Assembly: GCA_029210545.1 (NCBI GenBank) | Contig: JARGFV010000099.1 | Span: 1 to 9,001, forward strand | Source of the DNA: a bacterium | Lineage (GTDB): Bacteria; BMS3Abin14 | Length of the DNA: 9,001 bases | Direction: 5' to 3' | In this document: in pieces, positions 2,106-8,108 of the stretch | How positions within the stretch are numbered: position 1 is the first letter of the stretch | Layout of the letters: each line of letters starts with the position of its first letter | Notes under the pieces: model-generated | What the model was told of the DNA's origin: nothing | The model's input: the letters and a program-made list of their open reading frames with translations, nothing else | The model's database searches: none | Made by a program: the position numbers and the translations under genes

Positions 2106-3236
2106 ATGAGTATCCAGGTGCTACAAGTTGCAAACCGGGCCGACCTGAAACGCTGGGTCAAGCTGCCCTGCGGGCTCTACGAGGGTGATCCATACCATGT
2201 CCCACAGCTTTTCTCCGACGAGCTCGCTTACTTCGACCGGCGCAAGAACCCGGCCTTCGAGATATCGGACGTAAGGCTGCTGCTGGCCGTCGACAACCAG
2301 AGACCCCTCGGGAGAGTCTGCGGCATCGTCAACAGCCTTGAATCAGCGAAGCTCGGCTTCAAGCGCGGCCGGTTCGGCTGGTTCGAGTGCGTCGACGATC
2401 AGCGGGTGGCCGATCTGCTGCTGGACAGTCTCAAGGACTGGTTTCGCGAAGCGGGCTGTGCCGAGATGAGCGGCCCTCAGGGCTTCACGGACCTCGATGT
2501 CGAAGGGCTCCTGGTCGAAGGATTTGATCATCTGCCGACCATCAGCGGAAGCTACAACCATCCCTACTACCAGAAACTCATCGAAAATTACGGGTTTGAA
2601 AAGGACGCCGACTACGTGGAATTCCGATCCCGGATCCCGCGGGAATCTTCGCTGCTCGAGAGGTTTCGCAGGCGTTACGCCGGCAACGAGGACTACAAGG
2701 TGGTTACCTGTAAAAACCGCAAGGAACTCCTCTCCCACGCCGATGCCTTCTGGGATTTGCTGGAAACCTGTTTCGAGCCGCTGTACGGGGTTACACCTCT
2801 GTCCAGGAAGCAGACCGATTTCTACACGAAAAAGTATTTCGGATTTCTGGATCCGAAATACGTCAAGTTGACATTCTCCAGGCAGGGAGAGCTGGTAGGG
2901 TTCTTTATCGGGATGCCAAACCTCAGTCGCAGCTTCAAGAGGGCCAACGGACGGCTCCTCCCCTTCGGCCTGCTGCACATACTAAGGGAGTACCGTAAGC
3001 CGGAGACCATGGATTTTCTCCTCGCAGGCGTCAAGCCCGGTGAGCCATCCGGCCTTATCATCGCGATCAGCGCCATCGAAATGTACGACACGCTCCGCCG
3101 ACGCGGCATCCGATACATGGAAACGAACAGGGAGCTGGAGGAAAACACCACCGTCACGGGCATCTGGTCAAAGTTCGAACGGGTCTGGTTTCGCCGCTCC
3201 CGGGTCTACCGCCTGGATCTGCGCCAAGACCCATAA
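2106..3236 (+). CDS. YghO-like GNAT-fold protein (putative N-acetyltransferase)
   Basis: This 376-residue protein matches the YghO-like group of large GNAT-fold proteins. Landmarks are the opening 'R.DLK.WVKLPCGLYEGDP..VP' (residues 11-33), RKNPAFEISDVRLLLAV (46-62), a GRVCGIVN strand (69-76), FGWFECVDD (90-98), and MSGPQGFTD followed by GLLVEGFD near 121-141. A second GNAT-like half runs from about 195 to the end, including GELVGFFIGMPN (261-272) and the closing METNRELEENT (338-348). The substrate is unknown; acyl transfer from an acyl-CoA is inferred from the fold only. The frame extends upstream inside the ATPase gene, but ATG 2106 sits nine bases after GAGG (2093-2096) and begins where homologues begin. 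It lies 19 bases after the ATPase stop, so the two are probably one operon. No signal peptide or membrane segment is seen. Confidence 0.82.
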   Translation: MSIQVLQVANRADLKRWVKLPCGLYEGDPYHVPQLFSDELAYFDRRKNPAFEISDVRLLLAVDNQRPLGRVCGIVNSLESAKLGFKRGRFGWFECVDDQRVADLLLDSLKDWFREAGCAEMSGPQGFTDLDVEGLLVEGFDHLPTISGSYNHPYYQKLIENYGFEKDADYVEFRSRIPRESSLLERFRRRYAGNEDYKVVTCKNRKELLSHADAFWDLLETCFEPLYGVTPLSRKQTDFYTKKYFGFLDPKYVKLTFSRQGELVGFFIGMPNLSRSFKRANGRLLPFGLLHILREYRKPETMDFLLAGVKPGEPSGLIIAISAIEMYDTLRRRGIRYMETNRELEENTTVTGIWSKFERVWFRRSRVYRLDLRQDP

Positions 3237-3265
3237 CGCTGCAACGCCCACGCCGGAGTCATGTA

Positions 3266-3284
3266 CCCCCGGCAAAGCCGGGGG
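3266..3284 (+). terminator. GC-rich hairpin after the ATPase/GNAT operon
   Basis: CCCCCGGC (3266-3273) and GCCGGGGG (3277-3284) form a perfect 8-bp stem with an AAA loop, 29 bases past the upstream stop codon. The downstream tract (ATTTCC) is only weakly T-rich on the + strand, and there is none on the minus strand. It may be an inefficient intrinsic terminator, an mRNA 3' stabiliser, or a repetitive palindrome. It lies between the converging ends of the + operon and the minus-strand gene. Confidence 0.5.
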
Positions 3285-3366
3285 ATTTCCCTAAGTATTA
3301 AACCGAGGGAGCGTTGAGCCGAGGCTCCTCCCCTCACTCCAACCCTCTCCCCCCCTCCGGCGGCGC

Positions 3367-4365
3367 TTACTTCCTGATCACCCCGTAGTCCACCATGTTC
3401 TGCTGGACCAGGTCCACCGTCGCGTCGAGCTCCGCGAAATAGTCACCCAGAAAATAACCCATCGCCACCTGCATGTAGCCACTGCTCAGGGCTGCGAACT
3501 GGTCGTGGATCGCCTGGCTGTAAGGATCCGTTGGATCATAGGGCATGCCCAGGTACCCCATCCCGAAGGTTGCCAGGTGTAACGCCGTGGCCCACAACGC
3601 CTCCCCGGGATCTGCAATGGTGAGCAGTAAAGCCTCATTGGTCACTACATTCCTGTGAAAGATCTCCGTCGTTGCGATAAATACCTCAGGATCACCGATA
3701 CCGGGTCCGCAAACCCCCGCAACCTCGTTGGCAAAGGCGTCCGCGAGCACCAGGGGGAACGGCTCGTCATAGGACCAGAAATTTGCCGAGGCCAGAAGTG
3801 TCGGACCGACCCACGGAGCAGCCTCCTTGAGAAGCAGGTCAGCCGAGTACTCGATGATGGTGTGGTAGAGCTGATGGACCGTGTCCGGGTCCGGAACGAT
3901 CCCCATGCTCAGCAGGACGTCCTGCAGCGGATAAACTCCCGGGATCCCGGGACTAATGAGATAGGCATTCATGACTTCCGCTTTGAGGTTGACGTAACCT
4001 CCGGGCCAGCCGTTAACGGCGCTCATAATATGCGCCGTATGGTCGATCCCGAATGGCTGGTTGTGCATAACCACCCCCGCCGCGATCCATTTCTCGAGCC
4101 CCCTGTTCTTCGTGTCGTACACGTCCATGAAATCGGTGTCGTGGGTCACGGCGTACAGGGCGTCGTAGTCGCAGTCCGCCTCGAAAGCGTAGTTGAAAAG
4201 ATCGGGAAGAGTTGACCCGTAGACCTCGTTGAGGTTCGGGTCACCTCCCCGCTTGCCGATCTCGCCGGCGACGTAGGCATGGGTGCCGAACCCCCACCCG
4301 AATGCCGTGGCCGCCACCATGACAGCTGCCCCAAAAACCACCGTTGATACAACTGCTCTTCTCAT
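3367..4365 (-). CDS. Secreted zinc-dependent phospholipase C-like protein
   Basis: This 332-residue protein has a clear Sec signal peptide: MRR, a hydrophobic run to about residue 20, then Ala21-Phe-Gly23 before Trp24. The predicted mature protein begins WGFGTHAYVAGEIG. The family resemblance to zinc-dependent phospholipase C (PF00882 type) rests on this WG...TH start (Trp24, His29), LPD at 53-55 (Asp55), and further candidate metal ligands His75, His101, Asp108, His109 and His112 in GIDHTAH. In Bacillus PC-PLC the mature N-terminal Trp itself binds zinc, so cleavage after Gly23 would match. The rest is divergent, so the substrate cannot be stated; a metal-dependent phosphoesterase outside the cytoplasm is the best guess. 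The start is firm: GGAGGG (complement of 4372-4377) lies six bases before the ATG. The neighbour upstream is the PAS kinase, on the same strand after a 156-base gap. Confidence 0.68.
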   Translation of the reverse strand: MRRAVVSTVVFGAAVMVAATAFGWGFGTHAYVAGEIGKRGGDPNLNEVYGSTLPDLFNYAFEADCDYDALYAVTHDTDFMDVYDTKNRGLEKWIAAGVVMHNQPFGIDHTAHIMSAVNGWPGGYVNLKAEVMNAYLISPGIPGVYPLQDVLLSMGIVPDPDTVHQLYHTIIEYSADLLLKEAAPWVGPTLLASANFWSYDEPFPLVLADAFANEVAGVCGPGIGDPEVFIATTEIFHRNVVTNEALLLTIADPGEALWATALHLATFGMGYLGMPYDPTDPYSQAIHDQFAALSSGYMQVAMGYFLGDYFAELDATVDLVQQNMVDYGVIRK

Positions 4366-4521: not shown

Positions 4522-7500
4522 TTAAACCACCGGCAGGGAGAAATAGAAGGTTGCCCCCTTCCCCCTGGCTGAATCGAGACGCAGGATACCCCCTTCACTC
4601 TCCACGACGCGCTTGACGATGGCAAGGCCGACTCCCGTTCCTTCCGTTGAGCTCTTTGGCGAACGGGTGAACAGCCCGAAAATGGCATCGTGGAACTTCT
4701 TCTCGATCCCGATCCCGTTATCCCGGACATAGAAAAGTTGGTGCCCTTCCGGCACCAGCCCTTTGTGATCGGTGGCCGTTCCAACCTCGACCTCGAGGGG
4801 ACGGCCTTCCCTGCCGAACTTCAAGCTGTTAGACAGGAGGTTCTTAAACACCTGGTAAGCCCTTGTTTGCGACATGTCGACCATGGGCATCTTGCCCTGG
4901 ATGGTTACCAACGGCTTCGGCTGCATTCCGTCGATGTTCTCTTCTTCCAGGATCCGCTCCACAAGATCCCTGACGTCCATAGGTTTGTGTTCTCCCTCCG
5001 CGATCCCGGTCTGGGAGTAATCCAGGAGATCGCGAAGAAGGTTGTCAAAGTGCCGGACATTGGCGTCGATCCGGCCCAGCATGTAAGTGTGTTCCTTTTC
5101 AAGCATACCCGCCAGTTCGCACCTGAGGAGATCGATAAAGCCCAGAACGCTGATAATGGGTGTTCTCAGGTCGTGGGCGGCCGTATACACGAACGCCTCG
5201 AGTTCCCTGTTCTTCCCCTCGAGGTTCATCAGGGCATGCTTGAGGGTATATTCCGCCTGTTTGAGGTCCTCTATGTCCCTTGTTACAGAAACGACGTGAG
5301 GTTTGCCGTCCATGGTGACTACGTGGGCCGAGAGCAGCCCTGTCCTGACGCGGCCGTCCTTGAGACGAAAACCGGCTTCGAAGTTGCTGACCCGGCCTTT
5401 TTTCTTGAGGGTCCCGATCAACCGGGCCAGCTTATCCTGATCGATCCAGAGGCCGACACTGCCCAGGGGCACCCCTACAACATCGTCCGGTGTGTAGCCG
5501 GTGAGCGCAGTGAACCCGTCGTTGATCTCCATGTAGACACCGTCTTCCATCCGGTTGATGCTCACCGCATCCGGACTTGCCTGGAAGATGGTCCTGAACA
5601 GTTCCTCGCTCTGCCTCAGGGCCTCTTCGAACCTCTTGCGGTGTGTCACGTCGATGAACGACCCGATCATCATCCGGGTCTGGCCATCCTCGCCGACGAC
5701 CATGTTGGCGGTAAACTGGGCGTAAAAAACGGAATCGTCCTTACGCCTTGCCGTTATCTCACCGGACCACCTGCCGGTCTTGTCAATGGCCTTGACCACG
5801 CGAGCCGCCTCCTCACGGCTGGCCCAGAAGTCCATCATGGACTCTCCCGCCACTTCCCCTTCCTCCTCATATCCCCACATGTCCAAAAAAGCCTGGTTCA
5901 CGTAGGTCAGCCTCCCCTCCAGGTCGGCCAGGGCAAACCCGCTGATGGACGCCCTGATGGCATCATCCCGAACCCTGAGTTCGGTCCCCACCGCCTTGAG
6001 GTCTGATATGTCCACAAAGCTTTCCACCAGCATCGGTTTTTCCTGAAGGTTCACCGAAACCACCGTCTTCAAAATGGGGACTTTTGTGCCGTCGGCCTTG
6101 ACGAGGACACGTTCCGAGTTGTCCACCACTTCGCGCAGATCGGTTATGGGACATTTTCCGATCTCGACCGGGCAGATGAACTCGTGGCACGTGCGGCCGA
6201 CAATATCTTCCCTGGGAAGTCCGATCATCTCTGCTGCCTTGATGTTGATGTTGGCAATCTTGTGTTCGTCAGGGTCGATGACCATGATCCCGGCCCGCAC
6301 GTTGTTGAAGATCGCGGAAAGGAACTGCTCGCTGGTCTTGAGCGCCTCCTGCGCGTCCCTGATCTCCGACATGTCCCTGGCGACTACCAGGGCGTGGTGC
6401 CTGCCATTATAGAGGAAGGGTGCGATCCTCAGGTCCGTGGGAAAAAAGGTCCCCCTTTTTTTCAGGTCCAGGGACTCGCCGTGAAACACCTCGCCCTGCG
6501 CAACCAGACGTTGAGCCTCCTGAAAGAGGTGATGGGAATCAGGGGAAATGAACTCTGTGCAACTGATGCCCACCATTTCCTCCCTCGAATAGCCGTACAT
6601 CCGGCAGGCAGCCGGGTTGACGTCCACGATCCGGCATTCCCCGTTGAAGATCATGACCGCGTCTGCCTGGGATTCGAACATGCTCCTGTACTGGGCTTCC
6701 CCCTGCTTGAGTTTTTCCTGGTAGAGCCTCTGCTCTGTGATATCCCGGATCACGCCCACCGTGGCAATAGGTTCGCCCCCCTCCCCCACGACCATGGATG
6801 TGCTCAGGGCGATGGGGAAGTGGTGCCCGTCCCTGTGCCTGACCTCGAGTTCCCCGGACCAGTGGCCCGTATCCATGATGGCCGGAAGGATGTGCCGCCC
6901 GGCAAATTCGGGATCCGCGTTGAGTTCGTTGACATGACGTCCCTCAAACTCCCGGGGGGTAAAACCGTAGATCTTCTCGACTGCCCGGTTGGAATAGATG
7001 ACGCGGCCTTCCAGATCGACGAGCTGGATCCCTTCGGCTGCTTCTTCCAACGCCGCGGAGAAGAGCCGAAGCCTTTCCCTCTCTTCGGACCCCGACAACA
7101 GGTCACTGGCCAGCACCGTCCCGGTAACGTCGTTGACGATGACGACACCGGCCTCCTTCCCCTCGAAAAGAATCCTGTTGGAGGAGATGTCAGCATGAAT
7201 AACGGAACCGTCCTTCTTCCGGTGCCGGAGGGGCGAAGACGTGCTGAAGGAAACGGCACCGTTTTCGATCCATTCCCCCATTTCGCGCGAATACCGGTCA
7301 AGATCCTCTTCCAGCCACAGTTGGGCGAGAGCCATCCCGGGGAGATCTTTTGCCCTGCAGCCGTAAAGGCCACTGGCAGCCTTGTTGGCGGCGAGGATGG
7401 TGTACCGGAGCGGGTCACCGGAGCTGATGTCGACGACGAAAGCGGGCAGGGGAAGGTTCCCCAGGAGGGAGCGGAACTGCTCCCTGTCGGTAACGCAGCG

Positions 7501-7554
7501 GGCCTGGCAATCCTTGTTCCCGGTTTTTTCCCCTGGCAATGGAGCATCCCCCAA
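4522..7554 (-). CDS. Cytoplasmic histidine kinase with six PAS domains
   Basis: This 1010-residue sensor autophosphorylates on histidine and should pass the phosphate to an unlinked response regulator. Six PAS domains run at about 26-144, 165-275, 287-398, 408-520, 530-637 and 650-763. A short coiled coil (about 764-786) follows, then HisKA with the phosphoacceptor His794 in AAHDLRTPI. The ATPase domain (about 895-1010) has its N box NLLSNSLKF (Asn905, Asn909), G1 motif RDNGIGIE (944-951), F box near 956-962 and G2 motif GTGVGLAIV (972-980). All catalytic motifs look intact. There is no membrane segment, signal peptide or receiver domain, so it senses an internal signal. PAS4 carries Cys456, Cys461 and Cys468, possibly for a metal or redox cofactor. 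The start is uncertain: TTG 7554 is given, but TTG 7539 has GGGGGA seven bases upstream and is at least as likely. The frame is open further upstream without ATG, GTG or TTG. Confidence 0.93.
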   Translation of the reverse strand: MGDAPLPGEKTGNKDCQARCVTDREQFRSLLGNLPLPAFVVDISSGDPLRYTILAANKAASGLYGCRAKDLPGMALAQLWLEEDLDRYSREMGEWIENGAVSFSTSSPLRHRKKDGSVIHADISSNRILFEGKEAGVVIVNDVTGTVLASDLLSGSEERERLRLFSAALEEAAEGIQLVDLEGRVIYSNRAVEKIYGFTPREFEGRHVNELNADPEFAGRHILPAIMDTGHWSGELEVRHRDGHHFPIALSTSMVVGEGGEPIATVGVIRDITEQRLYQEKLKQGEAQYRSMFESQADAVMIFNGECRIVDVNPAACRMYGYSREEMVGISCTEFISPDSHHLFQEAQRLVAQGEVFHGESLDLKKRGTFFPTDLRIAPFLYNGRHHALVVARDMSEIRDAQEALKTSEQFLSAIFNNVRAGIMVIDPDEHKIANINIKAAEMIGLPREDIVGRTCHEFICPVEIGKCPITDLREVVDNSERVLVKADGTKVPILKTVVSVNLQEKPMLVESFVDISDLKAVGTELRVRDDAIRASISGFALADLEGRLTYVNQAFLDMWGYEEEGEVAGESMMDFWASREEAARVVKAIDKTGRWSGEITARRKDDSVFYAQFTANMVVGEDGQTRMMIGSFIDVTHRKRFEEALRQSEELFRTIFQASPDAVSINRMEDGVYMEINDGFTALTGYTPDDVVGVPLGSVGLWIDQDKLARLIGTLKKKGRVSNFEAGFRLKDGRVRTGLLSAHVVTMDGKPHVVSVTRDIEDLKQAEYTLKHALMNLEGKNRELEAFVYTAAHDLRTPIISVLGFIDLLRCELAGMLEKEHTYMLGRIDANVRHFDNLLRDLLDYSQTGIAEGEHKPMDVRDLVERILEEENIDGMQPKPLVTIQGKMPMVDMSQTRAYQVFKNLLSNSLKFGREGRPLEVEVGTATDHKGLVPEGHQLFYVRDNGIGIEKKFHDAIFGLFTRSPKSSTEGTGVGLAIVKRVVESEGGILRLDSARGKGATFYFSLPVV

Positions 7555-7578
7555 AGGCAGTTCGCTGATGTTTCCCCT

Positions 7579-7608
7579 GCAGCGTGTCGGGAAACCTCGG
7601 CACGCTGC
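7579..7608. promoter_or_regulatory. Strong hairpin in the kinase leader
   Basis: GCAGCGTG (7579-7586) pairs perfectly with CACGCTGC (7601-7608), and the inner TCGGG/CTCGG adds five pairs including two wobbles, leaving an AAAC loop. It lies 25 bases upstream of the TTG at 7554. On the kinase strand it is followed directly by AGGGGAAAC. It could be a leader structure controlling kinase translation, or simply a palindrome. No T tract follows on either strand, so an intrinsic terminator is unlikely. Confidence 0.55.
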
Positions 7609-7723
7609 TATTCCACCACATGAATACCCGAAATGGCAATGGGTATGATCACGGGTAGGCTCATTTTGAGGGGCAGTTGTAGTTGCAGGTGAACTGAAGT
7701 GCGGTTATCCTTATATTCAAAAA

Positions 7724-7886
7724 CGTTGATAGATTCGCAAAAAGTCCAATCCGGGACTTTTCGCTCCACGGAAAGGGAAAAGCGTCGTTTTCCCTTTCCT
7801 TACAAATCAATGACTTACGGGGTGAGTCATTGATTTGGGCGCCCCGCGCGGGGCGCGTTGATGGACTTTTTGCGAGTTCATCAACG
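7724..7886. repeat. Compound palindromic element with imperfect inverted ends
   Basis: The ends (7724-7747 and 7863-7886) are 24-bp inverted repeats with three mismatches, sharing CGTTGAT and CGCAAAAAGTCC. Inside are three tandem hairpins: GGAAAGGGAAAA (7770-7781) with its complement at 7788-7799; a 13-bp stem CAAATCAATGACT (7803-7815) with 7825-7837; and an 18-base perfect palindrome GCGCCCCGCGCGGGGCGC (7839-7856). The left end can instead fold locally (AAAAGTCC 7740-7747 with GGACTTTT 7754-7761). The right end can also fold locally (CGTTGATG 7856-7863 with CATCAACG 7879-7886). The build resembles a MITE or a REP/BIME-type repeat. No clear target duplication is seen and no protein is encoded. 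Confidence 0.85.
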
Positions 7887-7909
7887 TTGATAGACCGTGA
7901 AAAAGTCTC
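7885..7909 (+). repeat. Partial third copy of the element's end repeat
   Basis: CGTTGATAGA (7885-7894) and AAAAAGTC (7900-7907) match the left end of the palindromic element (7724-7747) at the same spacing and orientation, with five differing bases between. It overlaps the right end by two bases and leads into the fmdB-like leader. It suggests the element belongs to a family whose end unit occurs in direct and inverted orientation. Confidence 0.65.
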
Positions 7910-7943
7910 TTCGAGACATTTTAAGCGGCAGGGGAGGTTTCAG

Positions 7944-8108
7944 ATGCCCACATACGAGTTCAGATGCCAGGGGTGTAAAAAAGTCTTTACCCTTACCATG
8001 AAGATCACCGAGCTGGAGGAGGGAAAGGCCGCCTGCCCCAGCTGCGCTACTGCCAAGGTCACACAGGTTCTTTCCGGTTTTTTCGCGAAAACACGCAGGA
8101 AAAGCTGA
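7944..8108 (+). CDS. FmdB-type small zinc ribbon protein
   Basis: This 54-residue protein begins MPTYEFRCQGC, the hallmark opening of the FmdB/CxxC zinc ribbon family. Two CxxC pairs, Cys8/Cys11 and Cys31/Cys34, should bind one zinc ion. The C-terminus is basic (KTRRKS). Members are usually 50-110 residues and are described as putative regulators after FmdB of formamidase operons, but their actual function is mostly unknown. The start is well supported: GGGGAGG (7931-7937) is followed by six bases and then ATG. The frame is open upstream to 7830, but that part is palindromic repeat and not coding. The gene sits immediately downstream of the repeat element and is followed by a terminator-like structure, so it may be transcribed alone. 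Confidence 0.9.
   Translation: MPTYEFRCQGCKKVFTLTMKITELEEGKAACPSCATAKVTQVLSGFFAKTRRKS

Follow-up and report, generated by a model that had tools for sequence, protein, structure and literature searches.

Prokaryotic MITEs were reviewed in 2024 (PMC10969869), and several of the elements summarized there resemble a palindromic unit within the window, by which we mean the whole 9,001-nucleotide stretch of bacterial DNA analysed here. By host and form, and compared by description only, the closest known MITE is Chunjie of Geobacter uraniireducens, which in the review's account is 178–235 bp long (PMC10969869). Like the window element, Chunjie is deltaproteobacterial, short, variable in length and mostly intergenic, and it has inverted ends with direct repeats; its 38 full-type copies (plus partials) stand against a few hundred copies of the window element, again by description only (PMC10969869). 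QMITE2 of Coxiella burnetii, as outlined in the same review, is ~190 bp long and has inverted ends of 23–29 bp, a stably folding predicted transcript and many truncated copies (PMC10969869). It shares inverted ends and direct repeats with the window element, but its direct repeats measure 7–9 bp rather than 6 (compared by description only), and the review's summary describes no modular hairpin core, unlike what is seen here (PMC10969869). ERIC and Correia elements, which are spread over related genera, are in that summary likewise short palindromic non-autonomous repeats with up to hundreds of intergenic copies (PMC10969869), and REP/REPIN sequences resemble the window element in being intergenic palindromes of high copy number (PMC3116915, PMC3733652). 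The ends and hosts of the ERIC and Correia elements differ from those of the window element. Moreover, ERIC and Correia are TA-target elements, whereas the window element has a 6-bp AANNTT duplication.

A first-pass annotation had described the unit as a nested palindrome with mutually exclusive folds and suggested, among other readings, a MITE-like repeat. That suggestion was well founded. Comparison of copies shows, at the level of genome sequence, a short non-coding element with ~20-bp inverted ends, a 6-bp AANNTT duplication and a few hundred copies that are mainly intergenic. We conclude that the unit is very probably a non-autonomous DNA transposon (MITE), since it is short, is without a transposase gene, and has common inverted ends, target duplications, an empty/filled site and many dispersed intergenic copies. 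Its parts are as follows.

7722–7727, no strand: left copy of the target-site duplication AACGTT (from the sequence and from 6-bp duplications at other copies)
7728–7882, + strand: putative 155-bp MITE, GATAGATTCGCAAAAAGTCC...GGACTTTTTGCGAGTTCATC (limits common to copies)
7728–7747, + strand: left terminal inverted repeat, consensus GAYRRNNTCGYAAAAAGTC
7863–7882, - strand: right terminal inverted repeat
7737–7764 (7737–7747/7754–7764), + strand: hairpin 1, local fold of the left end (paired substitutions)
7770–7799, + strand: hairpin 2, GGAAAGGGAAAA/TTTTCCCTTTCC (repeat search; paired substitutions, helix 2)
7803–7837, + strand: hairpin 3, CAAATCAATGACTTAC/GTGAGTCATTGATTTG (repeat search; helix 3, nine pairs changed on both sides)
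7839–7856, + strand: hairpin 4, GCGCCCC/GGGGCGC (fold; paired substitutions, helix 4)
7860–7882, + strand: hairpin 5, local fold of the right end, GATGGAC/GTTCATC (sequence; relatives)
7883–7888, no strand: right copy of the target-site duplication AACGTT (sequence)
7889–7918, + strand: left end, truncated, of an element from a sibling subfamily (similar left ends at nine places in three genomes)

All the features reported at first pass (inverted ends, hairpins within them, local alternative folds and a third partial copy) are present in the sequence. In particular, a repeat search of the window returned inverted ends at 7722–7748/7862–7888 (27 nt, 89% complementary) and hairpin arms at 7803–7818/7822–7837 (16 nt, 94% complementary) and 7770–7781/7788–7799 (12 nt, perfect); the GC hairpin at 7839–7845/7850–7856 is also perfect by sequence. 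The local alternatives at 7740–7747/7754–7761 (AAAAGTCC/GGACTTTT) and 7856–7863/7879–7886 (CGTTGATG/CATCAACG) are exact complements. Two details had to be revised. The ends, given as 24 bp, do pair, but their outermost 6 bp (AACGTT) are the target-site duplication and lie outside the element, so that the second local hairpin owes its CGTT/AACG pairing to chance at this insertion site. The third, direct partial copy does exist, but it belongs to a sibling subfamily, whose left end it represents, and not to the ends of the same element. Element limits identical to those drawn here were seen at the filled/empty site of another locus. In the window copy hairpin 1 has one A-C mismatch; many relatives have it perfect, and its paired substitutions (helix 1) include CG to UA and AU to CG. 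Matched versions of hairpin 5 occur in relatives as GATGACTT..AAGTCATC and GATGGACT..AGTCCATC. The + strand folds at -84.4 kcal/mol, as compared with -44.8 ± 4.1 for 200 shuffles (z -9.75), and the corresponding z scores are -8.5 for the - strand and -8.9 for the DNA fold, which places the folded unit far from chance.

The sibling left end, truncated in the window, adjoins the right-hand AACGTT and carries GTCTC-TTC-GAGAC and ATTTT after the end motif; nine further instances of the sibling left end (end motif, then a GTCTC-NTC-GAG hairpin) were located across three genomes. At other places too, neighbouring elements lie head to tail with an overlap of ~6 bp (e.g. G006:C84 and G005:C196). On the left of the element lies a PAS histidine kinase gene (4522–7554, - strand), and on the right a zinc-ribbon fmdB-type gene (7944–8108, + strand), followed by prmA. 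Upstream of fmdB its reading frame continues without a stop into the element, where a TTG at 7830 could add 38 residues to the N terminus; a similar in-frame run was seen at locus L101.

In the 2.72-Mb genome there are 448 occurrences of the end motif (231 + 217, at most one mismatch) and none of the motif read backwards. Matches to the whole unit were scored at 40 places in its own genome, from 375 first-look candidates, and relatives were found in 10 of 11 genomes of the same family and in 0 of 29 genomes of other families. Among relatives, ends number 477 in G004, 299 in G003, 156 in G009, 70 in G007 and 16 in G008; the counts for G002 (4) and G001 (6) are close to background. A 770-kb genome sample contains 72 elements, which make up 1.37% of the sequence, and only 18% of element bases fall in ORFs (called by a simple greedy rule) versus 86% for the sample. 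Plasmids, phages and viral contigs yielded no copies, with weak matches at chance level. Many contigs of genome G000 start or stop within ~150 bp of an element end; the repeat breaks the assembly.

The genes around the copies are convergent in 10 cases, divergent in 11 and co-directional in 30, and within the co-directional class 15 copies lie on the same strand as the genes and 15 on the opposite strand. These counts bear on the proposal that the unit bounds transcription, or terminates it in both directions, between the kinase and fmdB genes. Its position between divergent genes and its strong hairpins invite such a reading, but the copies adjoin many unrelated genes with orientations of 15:15, are not concentrated between convergent genes, and contain no terminator-like site; moreover, the divergent genes of the window read away from the element, so that there would be little transcription to block. 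The sole terminator-like site (7917–7905, - strand; 0.7 expected by chance) lies in the neighbouring partial copy. We therefore consider a boundary function extremely unlikely.

Alignment of the flanks puts the element limits at GAT...ATC. Exact direct repeats bound 37 of 76 copies (33 with 6 bp and 4 with 7 bp), as compared with ~4% in a control in which the flanks of different copies were paired, and the duplicated target has the consensus AANNTT. Sites that depart from the consensus (AAGTAT, AAAGGT, AAGGAA and ACAGTT) are duplicated on both sides as well, so that the direct repeat is not merely part of the ends. The absence of an exact duplication from 39 of the 76 copies is as expected for old copies. 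At locus L062 a 188-bp copy interrupts another repeat, with AACTTT on both sides, and at L103 of the same genome an uninterrupted version of that repeat carries a single AACTTT. Target duplications together with this filled/empty pair show, by sequence comparison, that the element is mobile. Copies of 46 bp that are two ends alone also have duplications (L084, L098), indicating that the interior is apparently dispensable for movement. The interrupted repeat belongs to a second dispersed palindromic family, GTCGGAA...TTCCGACA with a GCAGCGTGTCGG motif, which was observed at L062 (around 3100–3440), L103 (1920–2090), L100, L094 and L086; a similar CAGCGTGTCGGGAAACCTCGGCACGCTG palindrome at 7577–7610 of the window, near the start of the kinase gene, is possibly the same repeat.

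The signs of movement also bear on whether the copies are REP- or REPIN-like palindromes mobilised by a tyrosine transposase of the RAYT (TnpA-REP) kind, a reading with which their high copy number, intergenic location and palindromic make-up would agree. REP/REPIN sequences, however, are much shorter units without target duplications and are linked to RAYT genes, and HUH enzymes leave no target duplication, whereas the element has 6-bp duplications, a filled/empty site and defined 20-bp inverted ends. The REP-like label given at first pass is consequently not supported, and we assign this origin a very small probability.

Elements differ in the number of their interior hairpins and range from 46 to 369 bp, with lengths of 155, 167, 175, 188, 200, 234, 271, 311 and 369 bp; the longer ones have additional hairpin modules, which fall into a few recurring types. 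For covariation, 44 diverse 155-bp copies were compared, in which the local hairpins contained 102 cells changed on both sides, as compared with 43.0 ± 6.3 after shuffling, and 17 pairs with changes on both sides, as compared with 10.7; many of these cells descend from a few source copies, so that the counts are of non-independent events, and those for helix 5, which is poorly aligned (one-base gap), are to be disregarded. Sliding the partners abolished the signal. The long-range pairing of the ends showed no excess (8 versus 7.1 shuffled). Hence both of the mutually exclusive folds can be drawn, but paired substitutions lend evolutionary support to the local one alone. The ends themselves look conserved as sequence, as would be expected for recognition by a transposase.

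Paired substitutions in the hairpins, like the very stable folds predicted on both strands, are what one would expect of a conserved structured RNA (a 5' UTR element or regulator) that had been multiplied, and at first pass such an RNA had been proposed upstream of fmdB. In addition, C-A intermediates (31; G-U on the - strand) outnumbered G-T intermediates (11) at the 13 covarying pairs, a weak hint of pairing on the - strand that does not settle the strand. Against an RNA stand the many unrelated neighbour genes, the representation of all gene arrangements, the even 15:15 split among co-directional genes, the lack of any Rfam match at the gathering threshold, and the freedom with which interior length and hairpin number vary. 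The proposal was not upheld for fmdB, and we judge a multiplied RNA highly unlikely.

The covariation might instead reflect recruitment of the hairpin interior of a mobile element as a DNA-level signal (e.g. a nucleoid-protein or replication-related site), a reading that is compatible with that of a MITE. Recruitment would explain why the arms stay complementary over divergent lineages, and paired substitutions between genera were seen in four internal hairpins. On the other hand, in other lineages the cores enclosed by these ends are unrelated, and templated correction at quasi-palindromes could produce the same paired changes without selection. We regard recruitment as unlikely, less so than an RNA.

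An exact scan for the left end on named contigs, in which we estimate that ~1 chance match would be expected, identified this end in MAGs labelled Proteobacteria, Pseudomonadota, Deltaproteobacteria, Desulfobulbaceae and Desulfobacterales, all of the named relatives being MAGs. In the four MAGs examined further outside the family of the window the end motif occurs 104, 60, 287 and 13 times; the elements that it bounds there differ in their cores, and several of them have exact 6-bp duplications. Within the phylum of G043 (a Desulfobacterales-labelled MAG), 19 of 79 genomes had exact matches and none had the motif read backwards. In G050, one of that set, elements of 110 bp with the same ends are 97–100% identical to one another, and 9 of 12 sites show exact duplications (L301–L310, L323, L324), so that movement there is recent; single ends in this genome, where traced, all proved to be short elements. 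At loci in other lineages (L193, L181, L185, L200, L184) these ends surround palindromes of the GTCATTGCGAGCGAAGCG type or the GTCATTCC...GGAATCC type. Palindromes of these two types resemble repeats of many bacterial genomes.

Copies share ends and target duplications, but a matching transposase was not found in the genomes and loci searched. No transposase gene flanked by element ends was found in ~1.95 Mb of three genomes, and the end motif did not occur on both sides of any DDE_Tnp_1 (PF01609) locus in 15 genomes, ISNCY_2 (NF033594) locus in 11, IS1595 (PF12762) locus in 9 or rve (PF00665) locus in 6; in MAGs, repeats that do not assemble would probably escape such searches. The ISNCY_2 loci in the genome of the window have a different repeated motif, TGTCCCC. 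At L101 (1291–2207; G000 contig C154) a DDE_Tnp_1 transposase gene is interrupted near its start by an element copy, inside which the contig ends; this transposase is not the source. A pair of inverted ends 3.76 kb apart (L075, 4403–8164; AAGAAT outside, AAGTAT inside) encloses radical-SAM, TVP38-like and FAD oxidoreductase-like ORFs. Considered as a compound element, it was set aside and judged probably a chance pair, given that a single match among 40 long pairs is close to the mismatched-flank rate.

On the reading of the unit as a MITE, a DDE-type transposase made elsewhere would recognise both ends and move the element in trans by cut-and-paste, a DDE enzyme being suggested by the fixed length of the target duplication together with the inverted ends. 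The interior would be a stack of DNA hairpins, apparently unneeded for movement, that gains or loses modules and whose arms stay complementary through selection on the DNA hairpin or through templated correction. The window copy itself probably serves no particular function for fmdB. A text search of the literature (few subscription journals) for the end sequence in mobile-element papers gave only unrelated matches; the family is apparently, though provisionally, undescribed. Tentatively, and with less than even confidence, we raise the broader possibility that GAYRRNNTCGYAAAAAGTC and the 6-bp AANNTT duplication mark one undescribed transposition system of the window's lineage, probably the candidate phylum BMS3Abin14, and of deltaproteobacterial genomes, which mobilises many unrelated palindromic cores, has been recently active in at least one genome, uses a transposase outside the families tested and keeps hairpin cores as part of its working.

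These findings mean that ~1.4% of the sampled part of the genome is one small mobile element, the hairpins of which could be mistaken for regulatory RNA. The paired changes in its arms allow a test of whether palindrome correction alone mimics the covariation of RNA structure. The ends common across lineages provide a simple probe for the mobilising transposase, and G050, with its recently active 110-bp relative, offers a practical starting point for that search.
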